Source: Thiomicrorhabdus sp. 6S3-12
GTDB lineage: Bacteria; Pseudomonadota; Gammaproteobacteria; Thiomicrospirales; Thiomicrospiraceae
DNA length: 64,000 bases
Direction: 5' to 3'
Assembly (NCBI RefSeq): GCF_017571475.1
Contig: NZ_JAGETW010000006.1
Location: forward strand, 1 to 64,000
The first letter of the stretch is position 1; each line of letters starts with the position of its first letter. The position numbers and the translations under genes are program-made. Below, in pieces: positions 12,146 to 45,409 of this stretch. Below the pieces are notes generated by a model. It saw nothing but the letters and a program-made list of their open reading frames with translations, did not search any database and was not told the DNA's origin.

Positions 12146-12724
12146 ATGAATAATTTTGATTACTCTTTGGGCGCAAAAGAGGTACAGCAGACGATACTGA
12201 TTTTGAATTTATCGATTGCTCAAATTGACTTGTCGATTACCGAAGGGGATAACTCGGTCAATGCACTGATCGATTCTTTCACCTATATGTCTCAGCATAT
12301 CGAACAGATTCAGGCAGCAAGTCGGAATCTGCTTGAGCAGGCCGAAGAGGCGGGCAGCTCGATGCAGTCGCACAGCAGTCTTCTGTTGAGCGAAGCCGGT
12401 GAGCTTTCCGCAAAAATGCAGCAGGCGATTATCGCCTTCCAGTTTTACGATAAATTGAGTCAGCGTTTGTCGCATGTTTCTCACGGTCTTTCCGGTTTGG
12501 CGGAAATCGTTTCGCATGAAATGCGCGTTAAGAGTCCGCAGGAGTGGGAAGACTTTAAGGCCAGTGTGCGTAAAGGAACGACTATGCGTGAAGAAGAGGA
12601 GTTATTTGAATTGATTTTCGATCAGCATGTGCCGGCCGAAGAGGCGATTGAAGTAATGAAAGATCGTATGCGTTCGCGTATGCATGAAGAAGAACAGGCT
12701 GAGGACGAGGTAGAGTTCTTCTAG
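12146..12724 (+). CDS. CheZ-like chemotaxis phosphatase candidate
   Basis: A 192-residue, mostly helical, soluble protein directly downstream of cheA (53-base gap containing a small CACGC/GCGTG hairpin). It lacks strong overall likeness to E. coli CheZ that I can see. However, the helix IIAFQFYDKLSQRLSHV has an Asp-x3-Gln pair (D102, Q106), the same spacing as the catalytic pair of CheZ (QDLTGQ). As in CheZ, an acidic flexible C-terminus ends in a hydrophobic tip (EDEVEFF). I infer a CheY-P phosphatase of diverged type; a structural coiled-coil protein is the alternative. Confidence 0.6.
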   Translation: MNNFDYSLGAKEVQQTILILNLSIAQIDLSITEGDNSVNALIDSFTYMSQHIEQIQAASRNLLEQAEEAGSSMQSHSSLLLSEAGELSAKMQQAIIAFQFYDKLSQRLSHVSHGLSGLAEIVSHEMRVKSPQEWEDFKASVRKGTTMREEEELFELIFDQHVPAEEAIEVMKDRMRSRMHEEEQAEDEVEFF

Positions 12725-12798
12725 TTTCGTCGTTACGACTCCGAATAAGGGAATGCTAATTTAAAATTAATTAATATCCTTATATATCAGGACAAATG

Positions 12799-12837
12799 AA
12801 AAGCCCGCATTTTATGAGTTAAATGCGGGCTTTTTTT
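12799..12837. terminator. Intrinsic terminator after the cheD-cheA unit
   Basis: AAAGCCCGCATTT and AAATGCGGGCTTT form a 13-bp stem over a 7-base loop, followed by seven T. Confidence 0.92.
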
Positions 12838-12995
12838 ATATTGTTCGCTTTAAATTGCATTTTTTGCGCGATGGAAAACATTTTTTTCAGCTCCTTTATA
12901 AACCAATAAATTTTTTTATCTTTTAAGGGTAAATATTTTTTATAAGAATGATCCGGCAAACTTAACTTGATTACAAAAATAATGAGGAGTGAAGA

Positions 12996-13934
12996 ATGAG
13001 AATGAACAAGCAAAGTTCCGGAAACGGACTGATTGGTAAACTTTTTGTCGGTGCGGCTTTAATGGGCGCGCCTATCAGCGCTATGGCGGCAGCGATGATG
13101 CCATTTATCCTGGGGAACGCTCCAAGCGGCGATCTGAACACGGCTACAGCATCCACTGAACAGGCGTTGAAACAGGCCGGTTTCGAAGTTGTCGGTAAAT
13201 ATTCTCCGGATCAAGGTGCCAATATTATCGTGGTTACGAATGACGCTTTGAAATCGATGGCAGGGAATTCGGAAAATGGCGGCTTCGGTGCAATGGAGCG
13301 TGTTGCAGTAACCAATAAGGGTGGAAAAGTCGAAGTCAGCTACACCAACCCGAGTTATCACTTTAACGCTTACCGTATGGACGGAGATATCAGCGGCGTT
13401 CAGGCTGCGATCGAAAAAGCACTGGGTAAACAGCAGGAGTTCGGTGCTGAAAAAGGGCTGACTGCGGAAGAGTTGCGCGGTTATCACTATATGTTCGCGA
13501 TGCCTTACTTCGATGATGAAGATGAGCTGGCGGAATACGGTTCTTATGAAGAAGCGGTAAAAGCGGTTGAAGATGGCTTAAAAGCGAAGCGCGGTGGAGC
13601 TGAAAAAGTGTATCGTATCGATATTCCTGGTAAGAAAATGAGCGTGTTCGGTGTGGCCCTTAACTACAAATCCGGTGCTGACGGTAATATCAACAGCCAG
13701 ATCAACAGTGCAACCAAGCACTCGCATGCGGCACACTTCCCATATGAGATTCTGGTAAGTGGTGACGAAGTACTGGCGCTGAACGGTAAATTCCGTATTG
13801 CAATCAACTGGCCGAGTCTATCAATGGCCGGCGAAGGTAGCTTTATGAGCATTATGTCGGCACCGGATCACATTACGGCCTCTCTGACTGCAGTTGCAAA
13901 AAATTCAGATGTTGCCAGCAACAACGATTTCTAA
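12996..13934 (+). CDS. Exported protein of unknown function
   Basis: A 312-residue protein with a Sec signal peptide (about residues 12-32, Gly/Ala-rich, ending AMAAA). GAGGAG lies 8 bases before the start. I do not recognise the family. The mature part looks like two related alpha/beta lobes. The first (about 45-140: EQALKQAGFEVVGKY, then IIVVTN and VEVSYTNPSYHFNAY) and the second (about 210-300: KMSVFGVALNYKSG, FPYEILVSGDEVLALNG) vaguely recall DUF302-type folds. There are no cysteines or membrane segments after the signal. It is monocistronic, flanked by terminators, with codon use like its neighbours. Confidence 0.6.
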   Translation: MRMNKQSSGNGLIGKLFVGAALMGAPISAMAAAMMPFILGNAPSGDLNTATASTEQALKQAGFEVVGKYSPDQGANIIVVTNDALKSMAGNSENGGFGAMERVAVTNKGGKVEVSYTNPSYHFNAYRMDGDISGVQAAIEKALGKQQEFGAEKGLTAEELRGYHYMFAMPYFDDEDELAEYGSYEEAVKAVEDGLKAKRGGAEKVYRIDIPGKKMSVFGVALNYKSGADGNINSQINSATKHSHAAHFPYEILVSGDEVLALNGKFRIAINWPSLSMAGEGSFMSIMSAPDHITASLTAVAKNSDVASNNDF

Positions 13935-33211: not shown

Positions 33212-35572
33212 CTAACGCTGTAAAATTTCAATTAAGGGCTGAGCTTTTCCAATTCCATAGCCTTGTGCATAGTTCACGCCAATCTGCTTAAGCTTTTCAA
33301 GTACGCTGTCATTTTCAACGAATTCAGCGACAGTCTTGAGCCCCATTACCGTACCGACTTCATGAATCGACTTAACCATAGCATGATCAATCTGATCTTT
33401 AGCAATGTCTTTCACAAACATTCCGTCAATTTTTAACTTGTCTACCTTCAAGGTTTTTAAGTACCCGAAAGAGGATAATCCGCTGCCAAAATCATCCAGT
33501 GCAAAGGTCACCCCTTTTTCTCTCAAAGTAGAGATAAAGTGCTGAGCATTCTCCAGGTTTGCGATTGCCGTAGTTTCAGTGACTTCAATACAGAATTTTT
33601 GCGCCAGGCTGCCCATTTCGGAAAACTTGCCTGTTAAAAATGCTAAAAATTCGTGTGAGGTCAGGGATTGAGCGGAAATATTAATGGCGCAATAACCGAT
33701 TGAAGGTAAAAAGCCGGGATGTTCCCTGAATAAAGCAAACGCTTTCGAAAATACCCAGTAATCGATATCGATCGCTTTGTCATATCGTTCTGCGGCGGGG
33801 AGGAAGGCGCCGGGAAGGGCAATACCATTCTCGGAATTCATCCGTAACAGCAGTTCATAGTTCATTCTGTCTTTATCGGAATCCTTGTCACTGTTAATGG
33901 TCATGATCGGTTGGGCATACAGCTCAAACAAGTCTTCCTGCAGGGCGGACTCGATACGCGAAATCCAGCCCATTTCTTCGGCTCTGAGCTGCAACTTCTC
34001 ATCGTTGGATACATAAAAATGGAAAGTGTTTCTGCCTTTGTCTTTCGCGGCATAACAGGCGGAATCGATCCACTTCATAATCATATCCGGCTTTGTCATG
34101 GAATCATCAATTTCAACTATTCCAATACTGACACCGATACGGAATACCTTTCCTTCCCAGGCGAATTGATAATCGCGAATCGCGTTGATAATCTCGTTGG
34201 CAATGGATTTGGCATTATCCTGATTCGAGTTTTCGAGAATAATACCGAACTCGTCGCCTCCGAGGCGGGCCAGGACATCAGATTGACGAATATAGGGCTG
34301 AATCAAACGCGGGATTTGACGTAGTAATGCGTCCCCGGCACTGTGACCGCAGGTGTCATTAACAATTTTAAACTGATCCAGATCCAGGTAAAAAACATAG
34401 TGTAACTGGTGATCTTCCGCTCTTTGCAGCAGCAGGGACAAGCGGTGCTCAAACTCGTATCGGTTAATCAAATCGGTCAAGGCATCGTGCGAAGCCTGGT
34501 AAGAAATTTTCTTTTCAACCATTTTTCGTTCGGTAATATCTTGCCCTTCGGCAACCAGGTAGGTAATTTCCTGTTCGGAATTACGGATCGGGGTCAAAAT
34601 AAAGTGAATGATCATTTTTTGCCCATCCGCAGCTCGAATGCTTACTTCTTTATTGATCTGATGCCCCGAAGCACACATTTGAATATCGGACTTAATTTGC
34701 GAGCGCAGCGAATTATCTCCCCACCAGGAACACTCGAAAAAATATCGCCCAACCCAATTGTCTTGATTGCTCCCCATGGACGTCGCGGCAGAGTTGTTAA
34801 CCAGTTCAATCATCCCGTCTGTGGTTAACATCACGGTAAAGGTCGAGAGTGCATCGGTATACTGACTTAATTTGTTTTTCGAGGTTTGCAGTTGTTCGGA
34901 AATCTCTTTCTGCATTTTCAAGTTGGAAGCCAGTAAACGTTGTTCCTTACGGGAGCTTCTAAAGGCGTAGAAAAATAAAAATAAAACCAGTGCAACAAAA
35001 ATCAGGAAAATCAGGCCAAATCGCAGTTTGGAGCCGATAAGCTTCTGGTTGACGTTATCCACCAAAAGTGTCGACTCGATACTTCCTAGCTCAATCACGC
35101 CCGCTAATTTATTTAGAATTTCGGTTTGGACGGGGATTGCTTTATTGAGCAGGATCGTCGTCGCTTCTTCTTTGGCGCCGTCAAGAAATAATTGCGAAAT
35201 CTTATCTTGAAGAGGGGCGTTGATTTTAGTCAGAGCCGTTTGTTCGGAGAGTAATGATTTTTCTCTATCGCTCAGCTTCAGGGTGTAGAGCTCTTGGCGG
35301 GCGTTGATAAAGCGGTTGGCCAGCAAGCTCAAGCGCAGAGAATATTCATCAAGAATAAACTCGTCGGTTTCAGCCATCATCTGCAAGAGAATTAAAGAGC
35401 GTTCTCGAGCGGCATTGTGCATAGTCGTCAGAAGGTTGCGCTTTGTTTGTTGTGATTCAACCTGGCTGGAAATATTTCGATACGTATTGGTGACATTACT
35501 GTAAACATCATAAATAAACACCAGAGAAATAAACAAAATAACGGTAATAACAGCGACAAACTGTTTATTCAT
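33212..35572 (-). CDS. Membrane GGDEF/EAL cyclic-di-GMP enzyme with periplasmic sensor and PAS
   Basis: Makes and/or degrades cyclic-di-GMP at the inner membrane. In 786 residues: membrane helices at about 5-22 and 185-204 enclosing a helical periplasmic sensor; a PAS domain (235-348); GGDEF domain with intact GGDEF at 438-442 and the inhibitory-site RQSD at 429-432, five residues upstream as required; EAL domain from about 535 with ELL (573-575) in place of EAL but with the DDFGSGLSSF, KIDGMFVKD and QGYGIGK motifs retained. Both activities look possible. Stand-alone, minus strand. Confidence 0.93.
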   Translation of the reverse strand: MNKQFVAVITVILFISLVFIYDVYSNVTNTYRNISSQVESQQTKRNLLTTMHNAARERSLILLQMMAETDEFILDEYSLRLSLLANRFINARQELYTLKLSDREKSLLSEQTALTKINAPLQDKISQLFLDGAKEEATTILLNKAIPVQTEILNKLAGVIELGSIESTLLVDNVNQKLIGSKLRFGLIFLIFVALVLFLFFYAFRSSRKEQRLLASNLKMQKEISEQLQTSKNKLSQYTDALSTFTVMLTTDGMIELVNNSAATSMGSNQDNWVGRYFFECSWWGDNSLRSQIKSDIQMCASGHQINKEVSIRAADGQKMIIHFILTPIRNSEQEITYLVAEGQDITERKMVEKKISYQASHDALTDLINRYEFEHRLSLLLQRAEDHQLHYVFYLDLDQFKIVNDTCGHSAGDALLRQIPRLIQPYIRQSDVLARLGGDEFGIILENSNQDNAKSIANEIINAIRDYQFAWEGKVFRIGVSIGIVEIDDSMTKPDMIMKWIDSACYAAKDKGRNTFHFYVSNDEKLQLRAEEMGWISRIESALQEDLFELYAQPIMTINSDKDSDKDRMNYELLLRMNSENGIALPGAFLPAAERYDKAIDIDYWVFSKAFALFREHPGFLPSIGYCAINISAQSLTSHEFLAFLTGKFSEMGSLAQKFCIEVTETTAIANLENAQHFISTLREKGVTFALDDFGSGLSSFGYLKTLKVDKLKIDGMFVKDIAKDQIDHAMVKSIHEVGTVMGLKTVAEFVENDSVLEKLKQIGVNYAQGYGIGKAQPLIEILQR

Positions 35573-35798: not shown

Positions 35799-38700
35799 TT
35801 ATTCATCGGTTGAATTAATCGTTTCCAGCGCCTTGTCGAAATCAAAGTTGTTGATTGCATGTAAAAGCGTGTTGAAACGTTTTTTATCCAGCAGCTTCTC
35901 AAAGAGCGTTTGATTGTTTTCAAAGTAAACGGTGGCTTCGCCGTCGAAACTTTCCAGCATTGCCTTGAGTTGATTCAGTTTATCTTGATGTTCCGTGGCG
36001 TCAACTGGTGAAGACGTATCGGGGTGAGATTTCGTCTCTTCATCGTTCAATGTTTGTAAATAAACGGACAGTTCCTCGAAAGCGGCTTGGCGAGTGTTTT
36101 CCAGCTTGGTTAGGCGTTCTTCAAGCTCGTTCTGATTTGTTGTCCAGTCTTGTTCATGCTCTTTCAGAAAATTTTCCAACTCAGCGCTATGTGCGGAAAG
36201 TTTCTGTGCGCCAACCGTTGCGCTGATGCCTTTAAAGGAGTGAATCAGGCGTAACATTTCCGGGTAGTTGTTATCTTCCTGAAACTGAAGAAAATGCTCC
36301 GGTAGATTTTGGTACTTATCTACATACTGTTCAAGGATCGAGTGGTACAGCTTTTCTGAACCTCCAGCCATACGCAGTCCTTCTTCAAGATTGACCCATT
36401 TGAAGGCCTGACCTTTTTTCGAATAAATGCTCTCTTTGTCGTTAGAGCTCATGTTTGAGTCGGAAAAAGCAGAAGCGTCTCCGTGGTAATACTTGCCCAG
36501 AATGCGGTAAAGTTCTTGCGGGTCAACCGGTTTGTTTAGATGGTCGTTCATGCCGCTGGCAAAAGATTGCTGACGCTCTTCTTCAAGCGCATGCGCCGTC
36601 ATGGCGATAATCGGTAATTTGCTGAACTGGGGATCCTTGCGTATGGTTTTGGTCGCGGTATGGCCGTCCATTTCGGGCATTTGCACATCCATGAATACCA
36701 TCTCGTAGAAGTCGGGGCCTTTGGCCTGCAACTCCTTGACGGCTTCCAGTCCGTTATTGACCACGGTTACCTGAGCGCCTTTGGATTCCATCAACTCAAC
36801 GGCAATCTGCTGGTTTAAAAGATTATCTTCCGCCAGGAGTATTTTCATTCCAGAGACGTTCAGATCCATATTTTGATCGATTTCGCCGTTCGTTGTCTCC
36901 AGTTTTAAAGTGCTTCGCAGGTGAGGGAAGTGCTGCGCTAGTAGTTGTTCGATATGTTTCGGCAATACCGGTTTGCTCAGAACGTCCGGAATCTCGTACC
37001 GGTTACCCAGTTCGGCCATCGACTCCTGATCGTAGGCGGAGACAAGGATACATTTAGGCAGTTGAGCAGGGCAGTGCTGCTTGATGAATTTGATAAACTC
37101 TTCACCGTCTTTTTCAGGCATGACCATATCGATGAAAATCAGGTCGAACTCTTCGGTACAGACAACTTTCTGGGCTTCATCGACATTTGAACAACTGGTG
37201 ATCTGCAGGCCGTAGATTTTAAGCAGATTACCGAGAATCTCCTGAGCAATTTTTACATCGTCGACAATCAGCGCTTTGAGGTTCTCTTTGATTTGAGTTG
37301 GATCACGACGCTGAGGCGCGACCGGCAGATCCAGATCAAAATAAAATGTCGACCCTTTGTCTTTTTCGCTTTTGACACGGATGGTGCCGTCAAGAAGGTT
37401 GATGATTTTCTGTGAAATCGCCAGTCCCAATCCTGTCCCGCCGTATTTGCGGGTTGTCGAACCATCCGCCTGGCTGAATTGCTGGAACAGGTTGGCGACC
37501 TGGTCTTGAGTCATTCCGATACCGGTATCTTCAACCTCGATATGTACCTGGATGGTTTTTCCGGTGAACTTACCGTCGATACTGAGTTTGACATAGCCTT
37601 CTTCGGTAAACTTCAATGCATTGGACAGCAGGTTGTTAATGACTTGTTCAAGACGCAGCGGATCACACAACACCCAGCCGGCGTTGCCGAGAACGTCTTT
37701 GGATTTGATCTCCACTAAAAGTTCCAGAGGTCGCTGCTGAATGGTTTCCGCCAGCAGGCTGGCCGAGTTGCCGAGCACTTCTTCCAGTTTCATCGGGATG
37801 GATTCGATTTCCATCTTGCCGGCTTCGACTTTCGAAAAATCCAAAATGTCGTTAATGATTTTCAAAAGCGATTCGCCGGCCGAATGGATTCGTTCGACAT
37901 AATATTTTTGCCGCGGATCAAGCTTGGTTCTCAAGGCAAGATAAGCCATACCGATAATTGCATTCATTGGCGTACGGATTTCGTGGCTCATATTGGCCAA
38001 AAACATTGCTTTGGTTTCGGCTGCGGCCTCGGCTTCTTCCTTGGCACTAATGGCTTCCTGTGTTGCGGTATGCAACTCTTCCATCAGCTGTTTGCGGATT
38101 TCAGCTTCGTGCATGCCGGTGAACATGACCAGGCAGGTGCTGTGGAATGGTTCAAGCAGCTCGACTACTTTCTCGTTGTACGGGGTTCTGGAGTTAGCCA
38201 AAGCGTAAATGCCAATGAGCTGGTTACCTTTTTTGATCGGGATGCAGATAAAGCGTTTGAGTTTGGGGTGGCCGTTAGGGGTCTTCTGCGAACGCGGATC
38301 ACTTTCCATATGATTGTTGATGATCATGTGCTCTTTGTAGAGTACTTGACCGATCAGCGTGTCCGGTGAGCAGAACGATTCCTGAGATTGTTTGAACTGA
38401 TCGTACATATACTGGGACTCTTTATCCCAGGCAAGATTGCTCATGGCATGCATTTTAAGGCAGCGTTGGTGGCTGTCGTCTTTGTAGACGACTTCGGCAA
38501 TAAATCCGGATTCGCTTCCGGTAATGCCGAGAATGACCTTAAGCAGCTTGTCCCAGACTTTATTCTCTCCGTCTTGTGTCGCCACAGAGGCTTCCGTAGC
38601 GGTTTTTAAGGCGTCCAGTAGTTTGTTTCTTAATTGGGCCGCGTCTCGGGCTTCGTTGCGTTCGGTGAGGTCGGTCAAAATGCCGATAAATTCCGAATCG

Positions 38701-40007
38701 TTTTGCAGTTTAATCTCCGATACGGCCAGCGCAAGCGGAAAAGTAGTGCCGTTTTTGCGCAGCCCTTCAACCTCGCGCTCGCCCTGATTGATAATATGGC
38801 CGTGACCGTTTTGAAGGTAACGGTTAATGTATTCCTGATGGTGATTGGCATACGAAGGGGGCATGATGATTTCGATATTATTGCCGATCATCTCTTGACC
38901 GGAATAGCCAAACATCTCCTCGGCTGAGCGGTTGACACGGGTAACAACGCCTTGGGCATTGATCTGGATAATCCCGGCGGCGGCATTTTCAAGAATGGCC
39001 TCATTCTGACGTAGCGGTTCGAGCGCTGAAATTTTCACCAGACGAATCAGCACGATCAGTGCGATAAAGCCGAACAGCATTAGCAGGGACTTGAACAGAA
39101 TATTGTTGAAGCGGGTGTGATAAAGCTTGTTCACCTCTTGCATAATGGTTTCATATACCAAACTCTGCATGGCATTGGAGTGTTCGACAATCGTATTGTG
39201 ATTGCCTTCCGGAAGGTGTTCGAGTTTGACGAGTTCATTCCCCGACTGGTGCAGGGGGCGAAGATAATCGATTGTGATTTGCTGGTAGTCTTTAGCGATA
39301 GTTCCAAGCTTTTCGAAAATCAGCGGATAGGTTTGGAAGAGGTTTTGATCAGCGTCCAGTTGCAGCCCGTTTTTTTCCATAATCAGGCTGATATCCAGTA
39401 TGTGCTTGCGTAGCTGCGGGCTTGGCTTTTCAGCATAAATTTCCAGCATGCTCAACAGTCTGCGGTAGCGGCTGTTCCAGATCTTAAACTGCCAGGCAAA
39501 CTCACTTAAGGCACTGATGTTGTTATTGAAGTAATGGCTGTTGAAAAGCTTTTTCTTGGCGTTGATTAGAATGTTCTGGAGCTCAAGAGGCGGGATCTCT
39601 TCGCCTTCGTAGGGGGAGTAATAGCAGCTTTTTCCGCTGGCGCAGTTCTCGATTACCTGTCGTTTATCTTTAAAGTTTGTCCAGGCTATTTCGAGTCCGG
39701 GAATCTCGAAGAGCGGCGTGCTTCCAAGAAAGTTTGCCATTAAGGCATCGGTTTTCTGTTGCGAGGCCTGCCAGAAAGTAAAGTAATGGCTTTCGCCGTT
39801 AATCAGTCGGTAACCGAGGTTGTCCTCTTCGCTTAACTGATTGGTCGTTTCTATGATCTTGATGGCGTCTTTAGAGCTTTCGATCCATTTGATCTCTTCG
39901 GACAGCGTTGAGAGATTTTCTCCCAATATCCAGACAAATAAGGCAAAAATCAATACCGAAACGGCTTGTAAACTCAGAGTTGCGGTATGGATCTTTTGTG
40001 CCTTCAT
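35799..40007 (-). CDS. Hybrid sensor histidine kinase (PAS-GAF-HK-REC-REC-Hpt)
   Basis: A 1402-residue phosphorelay kinase. Membrane helices at about 10-28 and 303-324 bound a periplasmic sensor of about 270 residues that includes two cysteines (122, 128). Then a PAS domain (335-450), GAF (about 465-635), HisKA with H675 ([12 protein letters not shown]), the ATPase domain (780-895; [15 protein letters not shown]), a first receiver with D961, a second receiver with D1108 and a C-terminal Hpt domain with H1257 (HSFKG). No output regulator is adjacent. It follows the outer-membrane barrel gene by 23 bases, making it the last gene of a three-gene operon. Confidence 0.93.
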
Positions 40008-40030
40008 AGGGGGTCAGGTCCTTGATGGGG

Positions 40031-41239
40031 TTAGAACTTTTTATGATAGTTTAACTGACCCGACAGCACTGACCAGTGTTTATCCATTTCGTTGTCGTCA
40101 TATTCCGGGAATATCGGTATATTCGCGTGCCCCTGACGATGATCGTATTGCGCCGTGAAGTTCAGCTCCGGAAGAATGTGCCAGCGTAATGCCAGGGTTG
40201 AGACCTTGCTGTAACCACGCAGATTGTCTTCATCTCTTTTGTCGTTGTTACCCAGATAGTAGGAATAACGAAGCCACGTTTCCAGGCTCGGCAAAGGGAG
40301 CCATTGCCATTGGAAATAGTAAGCATGGCCTTTGGTGTCGATATTGTCAGAGGGTTGGAAAGTGTATTCGATATCGGTATGGGTCTGGATATCCATATAT
40401 TCCGAACTGAAAATATGGTTTTTGTATTGATACTGGGCTGAAAGCATATGTAGGCCTACAGCGTATCGGGCATCGCTGATAAGGCCCGTGATTGCAGGGT
40501 CCAGATCGATCAAGGGTTCGGCATTCATATAGCTGTAATTGAAGCGCATACTTGGGAGTGCATTCGGTTCAAAATACAGGTTGAGCCCGTATTTTCTCAT
40601 GCGGTTGATGTCACCGCGGTTATCGATCCCTTTCAGAAGATAGAGTTCAAGCGAATCGTCGGAACTCGATTTTTCACCGTAATAGGCGTCAACTTCCAGG
40701 GTTCCGCCGGAAAGGAAATGGGTTGAATAGAGGTTGACGCCGTCGGTGGAAACCATAAAGTCGCGCAGCCCTTCGAAATAGATAGCGCTTGGTAAAAAGA
40801 TTCCAGGCCGCGAAGAAGGGTAGTCACGCGAATCATTGTATAGACCGTAAGGGGTTTTGACGCGCCCGGCACGAATGCCCGCTCTGTTGAGTCCATTGTC
40901 GAAAAGCAGATAATCCGCCAGAAGGTAATCGATCTTGGGCTCACCTTCATAGATGTCACCGAAAGTCTGTGAGAGAAGCTGGCCGCTGAAACGCCAGTCG
41001 GAGTTGTAAATCCAGTTCAGGTTCAAACCAATTTCATTCAGTTTGAAAGATCCTTCTTCCGAGTCCTTGGTTAAAAACGGACTGTCATACGACTTAATGA
41101 ATCCCTGTGAGATAAAAGCGTTGGCTTGGACTTCTGCACTTGCTGGAGATGCCGCCATTGCTGAGGCTAGAATCATGGCGCAGGAAAGTCTGCAGGCGGA
41201 TTTGCCGAAACGGTTTCGGAGATGCATGGCCGGGAACAT
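40031..41239 (-). CDS. Outer-membrane beta-barrel, porin-like
   Basis: A 402-residue protein with an N-terminal signal (about 12-35, cleavage after ASA) and a mature part of alternating amphipathic strands rich in Tyr/Asp/Asn, ending LNYHKKF with a terminal aromatic, the signal for barrel insertion. No OmpA or TonB-receptor plug is seen. GGAGAG lies 6 bases before the ATG at 41239, and this ATG overlaps the stop of the upstream PstS-like gene (TAATG). The coupling suggests it delivers or monitors a ligand with its neighbours. Confidence 0.8.
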   Translation of the reverse strand: MFPAMHLRNRFGKSACRLSCAMILASAMAASPASAEVQANAFISQGFIKSYDSPFLTKDSEEGSFKLNEIGLNLNWIYNSDWRFSGQLLSQTFGDIYEGEPKIDYLLADYLLFDNGLNRAGIRAGRVKTPYGLYNDSRDYPSSRPGIFLPSAIYFEGLRDFMVSTDGVNLYSTHFLSGGTLEVDAYYGEKSSSDDSLELYLLKGIDNRGDINRMRKYGLNLYFEPNALPSMRFNYSYMNAEPLIDLDPAITGLISDARYAVGLHMLSAQYQYKNHIFSSEYMDIQTHTDIEYTFQPSDNIDTKGHAYYFQWQWLPLPSLETWLRYSYYLGNNDKRDEDNLRGYSKVSTLALRWHILPELNFTAQYDHRQGHANIPIFPEYDDNEMDKHWSVLSGQLNYHKKF

Positions 41240-41751
41240 TATTTGCTCTCCTTTAGAATAGATGTTTGTGAGAGTCTATAAAGGTTTCGTGTTGAAATGT
41301 AGCCAACTGCACCGGGTGTTTTATAAACGTTTTGGATCATCTCTTCTTCATTCAGGAGTTCTATCGGAGCGATACCGCGACCGCTGAAAATCAGTCTGTT
41401 CCAGATTCGTTGAATCTGGTAAACGTTGGTATTCAGGTATTTATGAACGAACTCTCTGTGAACGGGGTTGTTTACCGGAAGGATAAAGGCCTGTATCGGC
41501 AGACCGTTTGGCCAGCTTCGTAACTTAGAGGTGAATATTTTATCGATCATTTCCGGGCTGTAGGCGTTTTGCTTCTGATATTCGACGACATGGCCATTAG
41601 GGTAGTGGACGATAACGGAGACGGTGGCATCCGCCGCGGCTAGGATTTGGACATTCAAGAGTAGACTCAACGAAAGAATGCCAACGAAAGTAGAGAATAA
41701 TTTCCGCCGATTAAGGTCCGTCTTTAGGTGGTAAGAAGAAAATATCGCCAC
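41239..41751 (-). CDS. Small PstS-like periplasmic binding-domain protein
   Basis: A 170-residue exported protein of the PBP-like (phosphate-type) superfamily. The visible motif is the second-lobe pattern FTSKLRSWPNGLPIQAFILP, then HREFVHKYL and IQRIWNRLIFSGRG, and TPGAVGYIS. This resembles the latter half of PstS-type proteins, so it is about half the usual size. I chose a GTG at 41751, with AAGGA 7 bases upstream, which gives a clean signal peptide (about 15-41); an ATG at 41844 would give an atypical long N-terminus. Its stop overlaps the barrel start. No pst transporter genes are near. Confidence 0.72.
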   Translation of the reverse strand: MAIFSSYHLKTDLNRRKLFSTFVGILSLSLLLNVQILAAADATVSVIVHYPNGHVVEYQKQNAYSPEMIDKIFTSKLRSWPNGLPIQAFILPVNNPVHREFVHKYLNTNVYQIQRIWNRLIFSGRGIAPIELLNEEEMIQNVYKTPGAVGYISTRNLYRLSQTSILKESK

Positions 41752-41844
41752 TGCATGATCCTTAAAATGATGAAGACAGCTTAGGAGTAATGCCGAGTAA
41801 ATGCTGCTTACGACTATGATTTCATAAGCCTTGGATACTGTCAA

Positions 41845-42036: not shown

Positions 42037-42064
42037 TTGACAGGCGATTTTTAGTCCCTATAAT
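42037..42064 (+). promoter_or_regulatory. Consensus sigma-70 promoter P1 upstream of tRNA-Arg
   Basis: Perfect TTGACA (42037-42042), 16-base spacer, perfect TATAAT (42059-42064), followed by ACGCGC. It lies about 115 bases before the tRNA and duplicates the layout of P2. Confidence 0.8.
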
Positions 42065-42134
42065 ACGCGCTCAACAGGCAAGCGATGAACCTCTTGGAAC
42101 AAGCAAGCCTAGCGCAAAAAAGTTTAAATTTTAT

Positions 42135-42163
42135 TTGACATAGATAAAGTTGATAACTATAAT
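42135..42163 (+). promoter_or_regulatory. Consensus sigma-70 promoter P2 of tRNA-Arg
   Basis: Perfect TTGACA (42135-42140), 17-base spacer, perfect TATAAT (42158-42163), followed by ACGCGC. It ends 16 bases before the mature tRNA, the expected position. Confidence 0.88.
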
Positions 42164-42179
42164 ACGCGCCACAAACAAA

Positions 42180-42256
42180 GCGCCCGTAGCTCAACTGGAT
42201 AGAGTACTCGGCTACGAACCGAGCGGTTAGGGGTTCGACTCCCTTCGGGCGCGCCA
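42180..42256 (+). tRNA. tRNA-Arg (anticodon ACG)
   Basis: A 77-base tRNA with acceptor stem GCGCCCG/CGGGCGC, D-arm GCTCAACTGGATAGAGT, anticodon loop CTACGAA with ACG at 42214-42216, T-loop GTTCGACTC, and encoded CCA. A34 is the site that TadA (also in this window) converts to inosine so that CGU, CGC and CGA can be read. Confidence 0.97.
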
Positions 42257-42958: not shown

Positions 42959-45409
42959 TTAGAACTCTTCCCAACTTTCGTCGGTTGTATTCTTTTTGAG
43001 CGGGCTAATAATTTCCGGTTTGGACGCCGGCTGCTCTTTGGCCCCTTGGTTTTGCGGTTTGGATCTTTCGATCTTTGTCGCGCTGCTTGGATTTGTTGCG
43101 ATTGCAGCAGGTTGGGTTCCGTGCGCTTTTTGAGAATTTCTTCTGGCTTGTTCGGTGAATTCGACAGCGATTTTGAATTGCTGCATGCGTTCGACAAGTC
43201 CCGATGTTTGCTGTTCGATTGAGGCGACACTTCGGGCAGAATCTTCGACGAGAACGGCGTTCTCCTGGGTGTTGCTGTCCAGCGAAGCAATCGCCTGGTT
43301 TAATTGCTCGACGCCTTGAGCCTGTTCGTTCGATGAGGCGGCAATTTCAGCGACAATACTGGTGACCTGTTGGATTGCATCATTGATTTCGTTGAGTGAA
43401 TCGCCCGAGTTTTGCGCCAGTTGGGTACCTTGCTGAATTTTTTCAACCGAGCGATCGATCAGGCCTTTAATCTCTTTGGCGGCATCGGCGGATTTTCCTG
43501 CCAAAGCGCGTACTTCACCGGCTACAACGGCAAATCCTCGACCGTGTTCACCGGCACGTGCTGCTTCTACAGCCGCGTTGAGAGCCAGTAGGTTGGTCTG
43601 GAAGGCGATGGAGTCGATAAGGCCGATGATCTGCTCGATCTGTTCCGAAGAAGTTTTAATCTGTTGCATGGCGTCAATGGTTTGCGCCATGATTGCAGCC
43701 CCTTGCTGGGTTTTTTGCGAGGCTTTTTCGGTTAACTGATCCGCCTGTTGTGCGTTTGAGGCGTTGTTGCGGATCGTCGAGGTCATCTCTTCCATTGTTG
43801 CAGCGGTCTGTTCAATTGACGCCGCTTGTTGCTGGATTCGTCCGGAGAGGTTTTCATTGCGGATGGATGTTGCTCTCATGTCTTCGGCAATACCGTGTAC
43901 AACATGGTTTACCTCCGCCAGTGTATGCGACAGGTTGTCCAGTGAGCTGTTAATGGCATCTTTGATCTCGCCCAAGCCGCCTTCGTATTCGCCTTGTACG
44001 CGATGGGTTAAATCACTTTCAGCCAGTGCATGGATTGCATCGGCAATATTGTGGTTGGCTGTAGCGATGGCGCTGGACATATGGTTAATCTGTTCGCCCA
44101 AGTCATAGATAAAGCCGTCGAGAACGCTGACATCGATCTGCTCGCCGATATGACCTTTAGCGGCTTTCTCTACCATGGTTTTCAGATTGGTTTCGACTTT
44201 GGATTGCATTTCTGCCATCTTCGCTTCTTGAGTAACGTCTTTCCACTCGGTGACAAAGCCCTCGCGGGAACCGTCGATATTCCAAATTGGGTTAACAATA
44301 ATTTTAAGGTGGAGTTCTCCGAGCGAGAGATCGGCGATATAGGTCTCTTTCAGCTCTTTCAATAGTTTGCGCTGATGGGCCGGATTTACGTGGAAGATGT
44401 CGATGTTTTTGCCGATCAAGTCATCCGCCTTGAAATGTGGGAGCATTTTCTGGATGTCCGCTTCAACGTTTTTCAGGGTTTTTAAGATCGACTCGTTCAT
44501 ATAGGTGATATTGAGATCTTCGTCCGCGATCATAATGTTCGACGTGCTTTGGTCGACAACGTGAGTGATGATTTCCGCTTTGTTCATATTGCAGCGAATC
44601 GCGCGGATCATGCAGTTGATATATTGTCCGAGTTTATGGGTTTCCGCTGATCCGGTTTCCGGCATGACCGCATCCAGATTCATGCCTTCTTCGTTCGGGA
44701 AGGCGGTAAGAATGCTGTCGCGCAAGGCCACGATCGGCTTGACCAGACGTTGTCGAACCAGCAGTTCTATCGCCAAGAAGTTAATCAGGATAAGGATGAT
44801 GACGAAGGTGAGCAGTTCGGTTACGCGAAAAGTGGCGCTTTCCTGGTTTAGCTGTGTGATTTTGGCATCGCTGGTGGTTTCGATGTATTTAAACCAGGCT
44901 TCTTTGGCTTTAATGGCTGGCCGGTCATCAACGACGACCTGGCTGTCAATATAGTCAGCCGGCGCGCCCTGTTGTTTGAGTTCCAAGACGATCTGCGCTT
45001 TTTGCGCGAATTCGTTGACGGTGTTGCGAATGGTCTCGATTGATTCGCTTTCTATTGGCGAAAGGTCGCCTAAATTTTGGTATTTTTGCAGCGCCTGGTT
45101 GAGGTTTTTGACGTTGTCGTTAAAGGCTTCGAGATAGCTGGAGGTGCGGTAATCGCTATCGCCACGCAGGATGAAATTCTTGAAGTTGTGAATAAATTGT
45201 CCGTAACCGAGTTGGGCATCGATTTCATGGAAAGTTTTGCGCTTTTCCTGAATGTTGGCGTGTAAAGTTTCCAGTTCGGTGTTGTATTGCTTATCAACTG
45301 CAATATAGATAGAGACTCCGATGATATTGATCGCTAGAAACAGGATCGTGTAGATCGTCAGGAGAAGTTTAATGGACTTTCCGGTGTTGCCTTTTTCCAT
45401 GCTTGACAT
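42959..45409 (-). CDS. Methyl-accepting chemotaxis protein with PAS domain
   Basis: A membrane chemoreceptor of 816 residues. Helices at about 13-36 and 200-218 bound a helical periplasmic domain (about 37-195). A PAS domain (about 285-390) precedes the signalling region. The highly conserved hairpin tip ([23 protein letters not shown] followed by [15 protein letters not shown]) is intact. The tail after the signalling helices is a Pro/Ser/Lys-rich linker ending SWEEF, an xWxxF pentapeptide that docks CheR/CheB in other bacteria. Monocistronic. Confidence 0.95.

Follow-up and report, generated by a model that had tools for sequence, protein, structure and literature searches.

A gene pair for a half-PstS protein and an outer-membrane barrel is conserved beside exchangeable signal transducers

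A small periplasmic protein resembling one half of the phosphate-binding protein PstS (BP) and an outer-membrane beta-barrel (OMP) are encoded as the constant unit of a gene set in which the signal transducer is exchangeable. Our best reading of this arrangement is that the pair acts as a portable input module across the cell envelope, with motility and c-di-GMP as its main outputs.

In the window, the whole 64,000-nt stretch of DNA analysed from a 2.55-Mb genome, the open reading frames (ORFs) of BP, OMP, and a hybrid histidine kinase (HK) are consecutive and all on the minus strand. The BP stop codon TAA and the OMP start codon ATG share one base (TAATG), and 23 bases (40008-40030) lie between the OMP stop and the HK ATG; these ORF positions bear out an earlier note on this DNA, which had described three minus-strand genes joined by such an overlap and gap. 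The features of the locus are the following:

41816..41844, minus strand: candidate operon promoter, TTGACA-17-AATCAT with an extended -10 (consensus match only, 10/12)
41239..41751, minus strand: BP, small PstS-like periplasmic protein, predicted lobe II only, with a GTG start and a signal peptide (PDB profile search, AlphaFold model)
40031..41239, minus strand: OMP, predicted outer-membrane beta-barrel and distant Porin_O_P relative, with a signal peptide (family alignment A1)
35799..40007, minus strand: HK, hybrid histidine kinase of 1402 aa (TM - helical periplasmic sensor - TM - PAS - GAF - HisKA - HATPase - REC - REC - Hpt)
39102..39920, minus strand: predicted all-helical periplasmic sensor region of HK, about residues 30-302 (flanking hydrophobic segments, structure model)
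36504..36842, minus strand: second receiver domain of HK, residues 1056-1168 (domain match, Asp motif present)
36096..36305, minus strand: Hpt domain of HK, residues 1235-1304 (domain match, His in IHSFKG)
33212..35572, minus strand: PAS-GGDEF-EAL protein, next gene downstream of HK (domain matches, operon membership uncertain)

An alternative in-frame start of BP is the TTG at 41844. We preferred the GTG at 41751, the start implied by the earlier note, because a signal peptide follows it and because the promoter-like site has its -35 box, TTGACA, at 41844. Downstream, HK is separated by a 226-base gap from the PAS-GGDEF-EAL gene, and no strong minus-strand terminator was found in this gap; the same neighbour follows the kinase in genome G020 and is absent in T. 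marina. The PAS-GGDEF-EAL protein is a possible co-transcribed output of the operon. A defence system was also considered as the identity of the locus and was dropped, as a search with PADLOC gave no meaningful match. On the other side of the operon, two tandem matches to the sigma-70 consensus promoter (12/12 each; window 42037-42163 and 42180-42256, plus strand) precede tRNA-Arg(acg). Beyond the tRNA and 1.2 kb upstream of the operon lies a gene (42959-45409, minus strand) for a chemoreceptor-like protein with weak CHASE3, PAS, and HAMP matches, and this gene adjoins the operon in G020 as well (locus L031).

BP scored 17.5 bits against PBP_like_2, below the cut-off of 27 and with partial coverage of the profile. 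When the profile of the BP family was compared to the PDB, PstS chains were matched (4q8r residues 78-186 of 252, E 1.6e-9). An AlphaFold model built with 85 sequences (pLDDT 88) matched PstS structures over about half their length, and the mature protein, of about 135 residues, aligns to approximately half of PstS in both sequence and model. Judged from the profile search and the model, BP is a single lobe (lobe II) of PstS with lobe I missing, in agreement with its earlier description as a half-size PstS-like protein. The phosphate-binding segment DGSGT of PstS is replaced by VNNPV in the window BP, the SGT motif is kept in 0/85 aligned family members, and the position of PstS Arg135 is mostly Gln or Leu; despite these lost phosphate contacts, the half-PstS domain falls in the PstS/PBP_like_2 family. 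G124 and P129 are invariant in the family motif W..L.F.G.G.PP, and GY at 150-151 is near-invariant. We read the motif and the GY pair as a putative protein-contact surface.

The barrel matched Porin_O_P in its C-terminal part only (24.2 bits versus a cut-off of 20.9; 2.5e-5), and the match of its family profile to the OprP chain 2o4v reached only E 0.09. The family alignment A1 contains the motif GRxKxPxGxYNxxRDxxxxRPG. The basic residues R123, R126, and K128 of the barrel are mostly conserved, and they suggest an anion as the solute. Barrels beyond the reach of the profile were recognised by their length and a C-terminal Phe.

The earlier note had recognised a hybrid kinase with two receivers and an Hpt of its own, and domain matches agreed: HK contains PAS, GAF, HisKA, HATPase_c, two receiver, and Hpt domains, with the motifs of the phospho-acceptor His, both receiver Asp, and the Hpt His intact. 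The HisKA, HATPase, REC, and Hpt elements of the BarA/ArcB-like hybrid kinase core are all present. HK was rejected as an equivalog of BarA, TorS, or LuxQ, with bit scores far under the NCBIfam cut-offs (458 versus 890, 389 versus 676.5, and 329 versus 1200, respectively). A periplasmic region of approximately 270 residues, modelled as all helix (pLDDT 81), is bounded by hydrophobic stretches near residues 8-30 and 300-330. Compared to the PDB with Foldseek, this sensor model had the nitrate regulator NasR as its best match, a weak likeness (E 0.011, TM 0.48) that we did not take as evidence for nitrate; a weak likeness to PilJ was also seen, and TorS was not among the matches listed.

BP was present in 24 of 58 relatives and in 128 of 370 sampled genomes of the class, with up to nine copies in each, and the small protein only was sought and found in 11 genomes of other classes of the same phylum. 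Neighbourhoods were counted around 98 copies, with ORFs called mechanically and loci taken largely from the best BP matches. A barrel gene was directly adjacent on the same strand in 80 copies, 47 of which also had a transducer within two genes (22 GGDEF/EAL proteins, 18 chemoreceptors, and 7 kinases); 33/98 had a barrel but no recognised transducer nearby, and 18/98 had no adjacent barrel. Expressed as gene slots, the barrel was at -1 of BP in 47/95 and at +1 in 40/97, which gives 87/192 slots at ±1 versus 12/510 for the slots from ±3 to ±6, far beyond chance (Fisher p about 2e-43). Signalling genes filled 57/372 slots within two genes of BP, compared to 11/510 further out (Fisher p 3e-13). 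As an independent approach, we scanned named genomes from the barrel, employing a five-sequence barrel alignment as the query (alignment A1 was too diverse for patterns, and a single barrel sequence gave no match in the contig scan). BP was directly upstream in 11/12 loci, and the twelfth begins at a contig end. BP and OMP distances were correlated (Mantel r 0.70, permuted maximum 0.08), although shared descent alone could give much of this r. The co-occurrence search that had been proposed found the pair usually kept together; regular separation of the genes, named beforehand as the contrary outcome, was not found.

Three arrangements were seen in the genus: BP-OMP-HK (G020, G013, G015, G031, and G014, with a second G013 locus ordered OMP-BP-HK), BP-OMP-GGDEF/EAL (G008, G009, G022, G016, G002, and G018), and BP-OMP alone. 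The 3.0-Mb genome G046 carries nine BP copies, several with their own barrel (L048, L049, L052, L053, L055, and L059). In G025 (L032:6132-10766), a BP-OMP pair survives without the kinase, and genes resembling insertion-sequence (IS66-type) genes lie directly upstream.

Among the barrel-anchored loci, the partner was an HK in T. marina and T. heinhorstiae, a GGDEF-EAL protein in Marinobacterium jannaschii, Amphritea balenae, Methylobacter luteus, and M. marinus, and a chemoreceptor in four loci from Desulfobacterium/Desulfoluna/Desulfobacteraceae; the short L166 contig showed no transducer. Desulfonema magnum (L165:5308-14115) has a tandem array of BP-OMP pairs that ends in a HAMP-SpoIIE (PP2C-type) phosphatase, and the transducer of L196 is a dCache_3-HD-GYP protein. 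Transducer class changes at least 6 times on the barrel tree, a quick tree with some open forks on which the class labels are still clustered and the HK group of the window is nested among GGDEF-EAL groups. The kinase named in the earlier note as the third partner does belong to a conserved gene set, but it is only one of at least 5 alternative transducers. The range is also wider than the marine bacteria mentioned there, with Methylobacter and Desulfobacterota included.

The sensors of these partners differ. GGDEF-EAL partners carry dCache_3 or dCache_1-like sensors, chemoreceptor partners have an N-terminal sensor without domain assignment followed by HAMP, and the kinase in L149 has a dCache_3 sensor. 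In profile comparison, the sensors of the HK, MCP, and GGDEF-EAL classes were unrelated (probability at most 2%), and a sensor domain shared across these transducers was rejected. With such unrelated sensors, one common contact surface between BP and the sensor is less likely; any contact may be loose, or the BP-OMP pair may exert its effect before the sensor, with no direct contact. In L034 a REC-HD-GYP gene (12480-13577, plus strand) comes directly after the kinase, REC-type genes of similar length do so in L035 (12339-13421, plus strand) and L036 (1-970, minus strand), and the window has its GGDEF-EAL gene, so that c-di-GMP looks like the usual end point and taxis the second. Since the same pair stands beside GGDEF-EAL, chemoreceptor, HD-GYP, and SpoIIE-type phosphatase genes, we propose that its common use is in steering motility, attachment, and c-di-GMP.

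In four genomes BP forms the C-terminal 130-140 residues of a protein of 563-674 aa, whose gene is followed by the barrel gene. These proteins have an N-terminal DnaJ domain, which exceeds the Pfam cut-off in three of them and is a weak match in the fourth, followed by a single hydrophobic segment and a long linker of low complexity (about 200 residues):

L182:4367-6097, minus strand: J-domain / TM / linker / half-PstS fusion, barrel gene next to it
L183:3231-4937, plus strand: the same
L184:4483-6174, minus strand: the same
L185:4241-6265, minus strand: the same

If BP is periplasmic in the fusions too, the linker could reach from one side of the periplasm to the other, and this would suggest that BP belongs with the barrel.

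We lean towards the view that BP and the barrel together form a sensory input module with one part in the outer membrane and one in the periplasm, which signals to the adjacent inner-membrane transducer. The barrel would admit or detect a solute from outside the cell, probably an anion. BP would reside in the periplasm and most likely dock on the barrel, and its state (whether it has bound a ligand, or has bound or released the barrel) would be passed to the inner-membrane transducer encoded beside it. In the window this would be HK, which would relay phosphate via its receivers and its Hpt domain to a response regulator; in other loci the module would drive a partner of the GGDEF-EAL, chemoreceptor, HD-GYP, or SpoIIE-type phosphatase class. 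The contacts of BP with the barrel and with the sensor, the direction of the signal, and the anionic ligand are all points that we infer. A broader and more tentative proposal is that Gammaproteobacteria, certain further classes of their phylum, and Desulfobacterota share a general input cassette across the envelope, in which a single-lobe relic of PstS would have been repurposed as a relay. This relay would dock on the barrel and could be combined with a kinase, a chemoreceptor, a c-di-GMP enzyme, a phosphatase, or a J-domain tether. If this were true, outer-membrane events, besides periplasmic ligands, would control inner-membrane signalling.

Homology to PstS lobe II could mean that BP binds phosphate and reports its level to the kinase. 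We consider this very improbable and rejected phosphate sensing by BP, given the missing lobe I and the loss of the SGT and Arg contacts across the family. The same genome has in one region of another contig, C11, a PstC (769 aa), PstA (545 aa), PstB (272 aa), PhoU (243 aa), PhoB (234 aa), PhoR (430 aa), and a 320-aa PstS; PstS and the permeases are backed by family searches, and the names PstB, PhoU, PhoB, and PhoR were given only on the basis of how the sequences start and of the order of the genes. With this complete Pst-Pho set on C11 and the lost contacts, phosphate uptake neither requires BP nor is a task for which BP is equipped, and BP lacks the means to bind phosphate in the PstS manner; membership of BP in the genome's Pst system was likewise rejected. 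No Pst permease or ATPase was found near the BP-OMP-HK operon, and no BP copy was seen inside a Pst operon among the copies surveyed. The earlier note had pointed to the missing Pst genes and argued that the binding protein serves a signal and not a Pst transporter, which these results and the conserved gene set support; the phosphate signal that it implied did not stand.

The resemblance of the barrel to Porin_O_P also fits uptake, with the barrel as a solute-specific porin, BP as a periplasmic carrier or buffer, and the solute itself sensed by the transducer through its dCache, helical, or four-helix sensor. The genes would then be neighbours only because the nutrient taken up is also the one that matters for taxis or attachment. 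The differing sensors of the transducer classes are consistent with this, as is the ability of dCache_3 sensors to bind ligands directly. However, a one-lobe BP has no clamp for a solute, and in the gene maps, where neighbours were not systematically annotated, no inner-membrane transporter was noticed as a regular neighbour and transducers recur instead; on balance we regard uptake as unlikely. Less probable still is that BP tethers the barrel from the periplasm or is its partner in assembly, with the transducer monitoring the presence or stress of the barrel, as in RcsF-OmpA-IgaA of enteric bacteria. The four J-domain fusions resemble an inner-to-outer membrane tether and the conserved W..L.F.G.G.PP suits protein-protein contact, but chemoreceptor outputs fit a chemical cue better than envelope stress.

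Compared to known systems, BP shares homology with the central portion of PstS (PF12849 / COG0226) and has a similar predicted fold, but it lacks the Pst permease and ATPase and has a barrel as its partner. The window barrel, a weak profile match to the OprP/OprO family Porin_O_P (PF07396), differs in belonging to its own conserved family tied to BP genes, with phosphate selectivity not indicated. In TorT-TorS and LuxP-LuxQ, too, the gene of a periplasmic protein of the binding type lies next to that of a hybrid kinase. In those systems the protein is complete, with two lobes, it docks a single type of sensor, and the set includes no barrel, whereas the window set combines half a protein, a barrel, and exchangeable transducers. 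RpfC-RpfG is a hybrid kinase with a REC-HD-GYP protein, similar to the related kinase of L034 and the REC-type genes in L035 and L036, but the window locus has a GGDEF-EAL protein without receiver instead. RcsF-OmpA-IgaA unites a barrel, a periplasmic partner, and inner-membrane signalling in one path with one fixed output, in contrast to the varied outputs here, and we know of no sequence relation to the BP-barrel module. A full-text search of open-licence papers found no description of the module; the porins mentioned in PMC2996986 and PMC545781 are unrelated to it. The parts belong to known families, and their combination and exchangeable outputs appear undescribed. A trans-envelope input module would account for a large group of chemoreceptors and GGDEF-EAL proteins that lack a known cue and would provide a simple genetic handle on the passage of signals across the outer membrane.

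A second, different binding-protein/sensor pair was observed on contig C11 of the same genome (L176:2126-5001, plus strand), where the gene of a 278-aa PBP_like_2 lipoprotein overlaps the beginning of the gene for a long membrane protein, the first part of which resembles a sensor.
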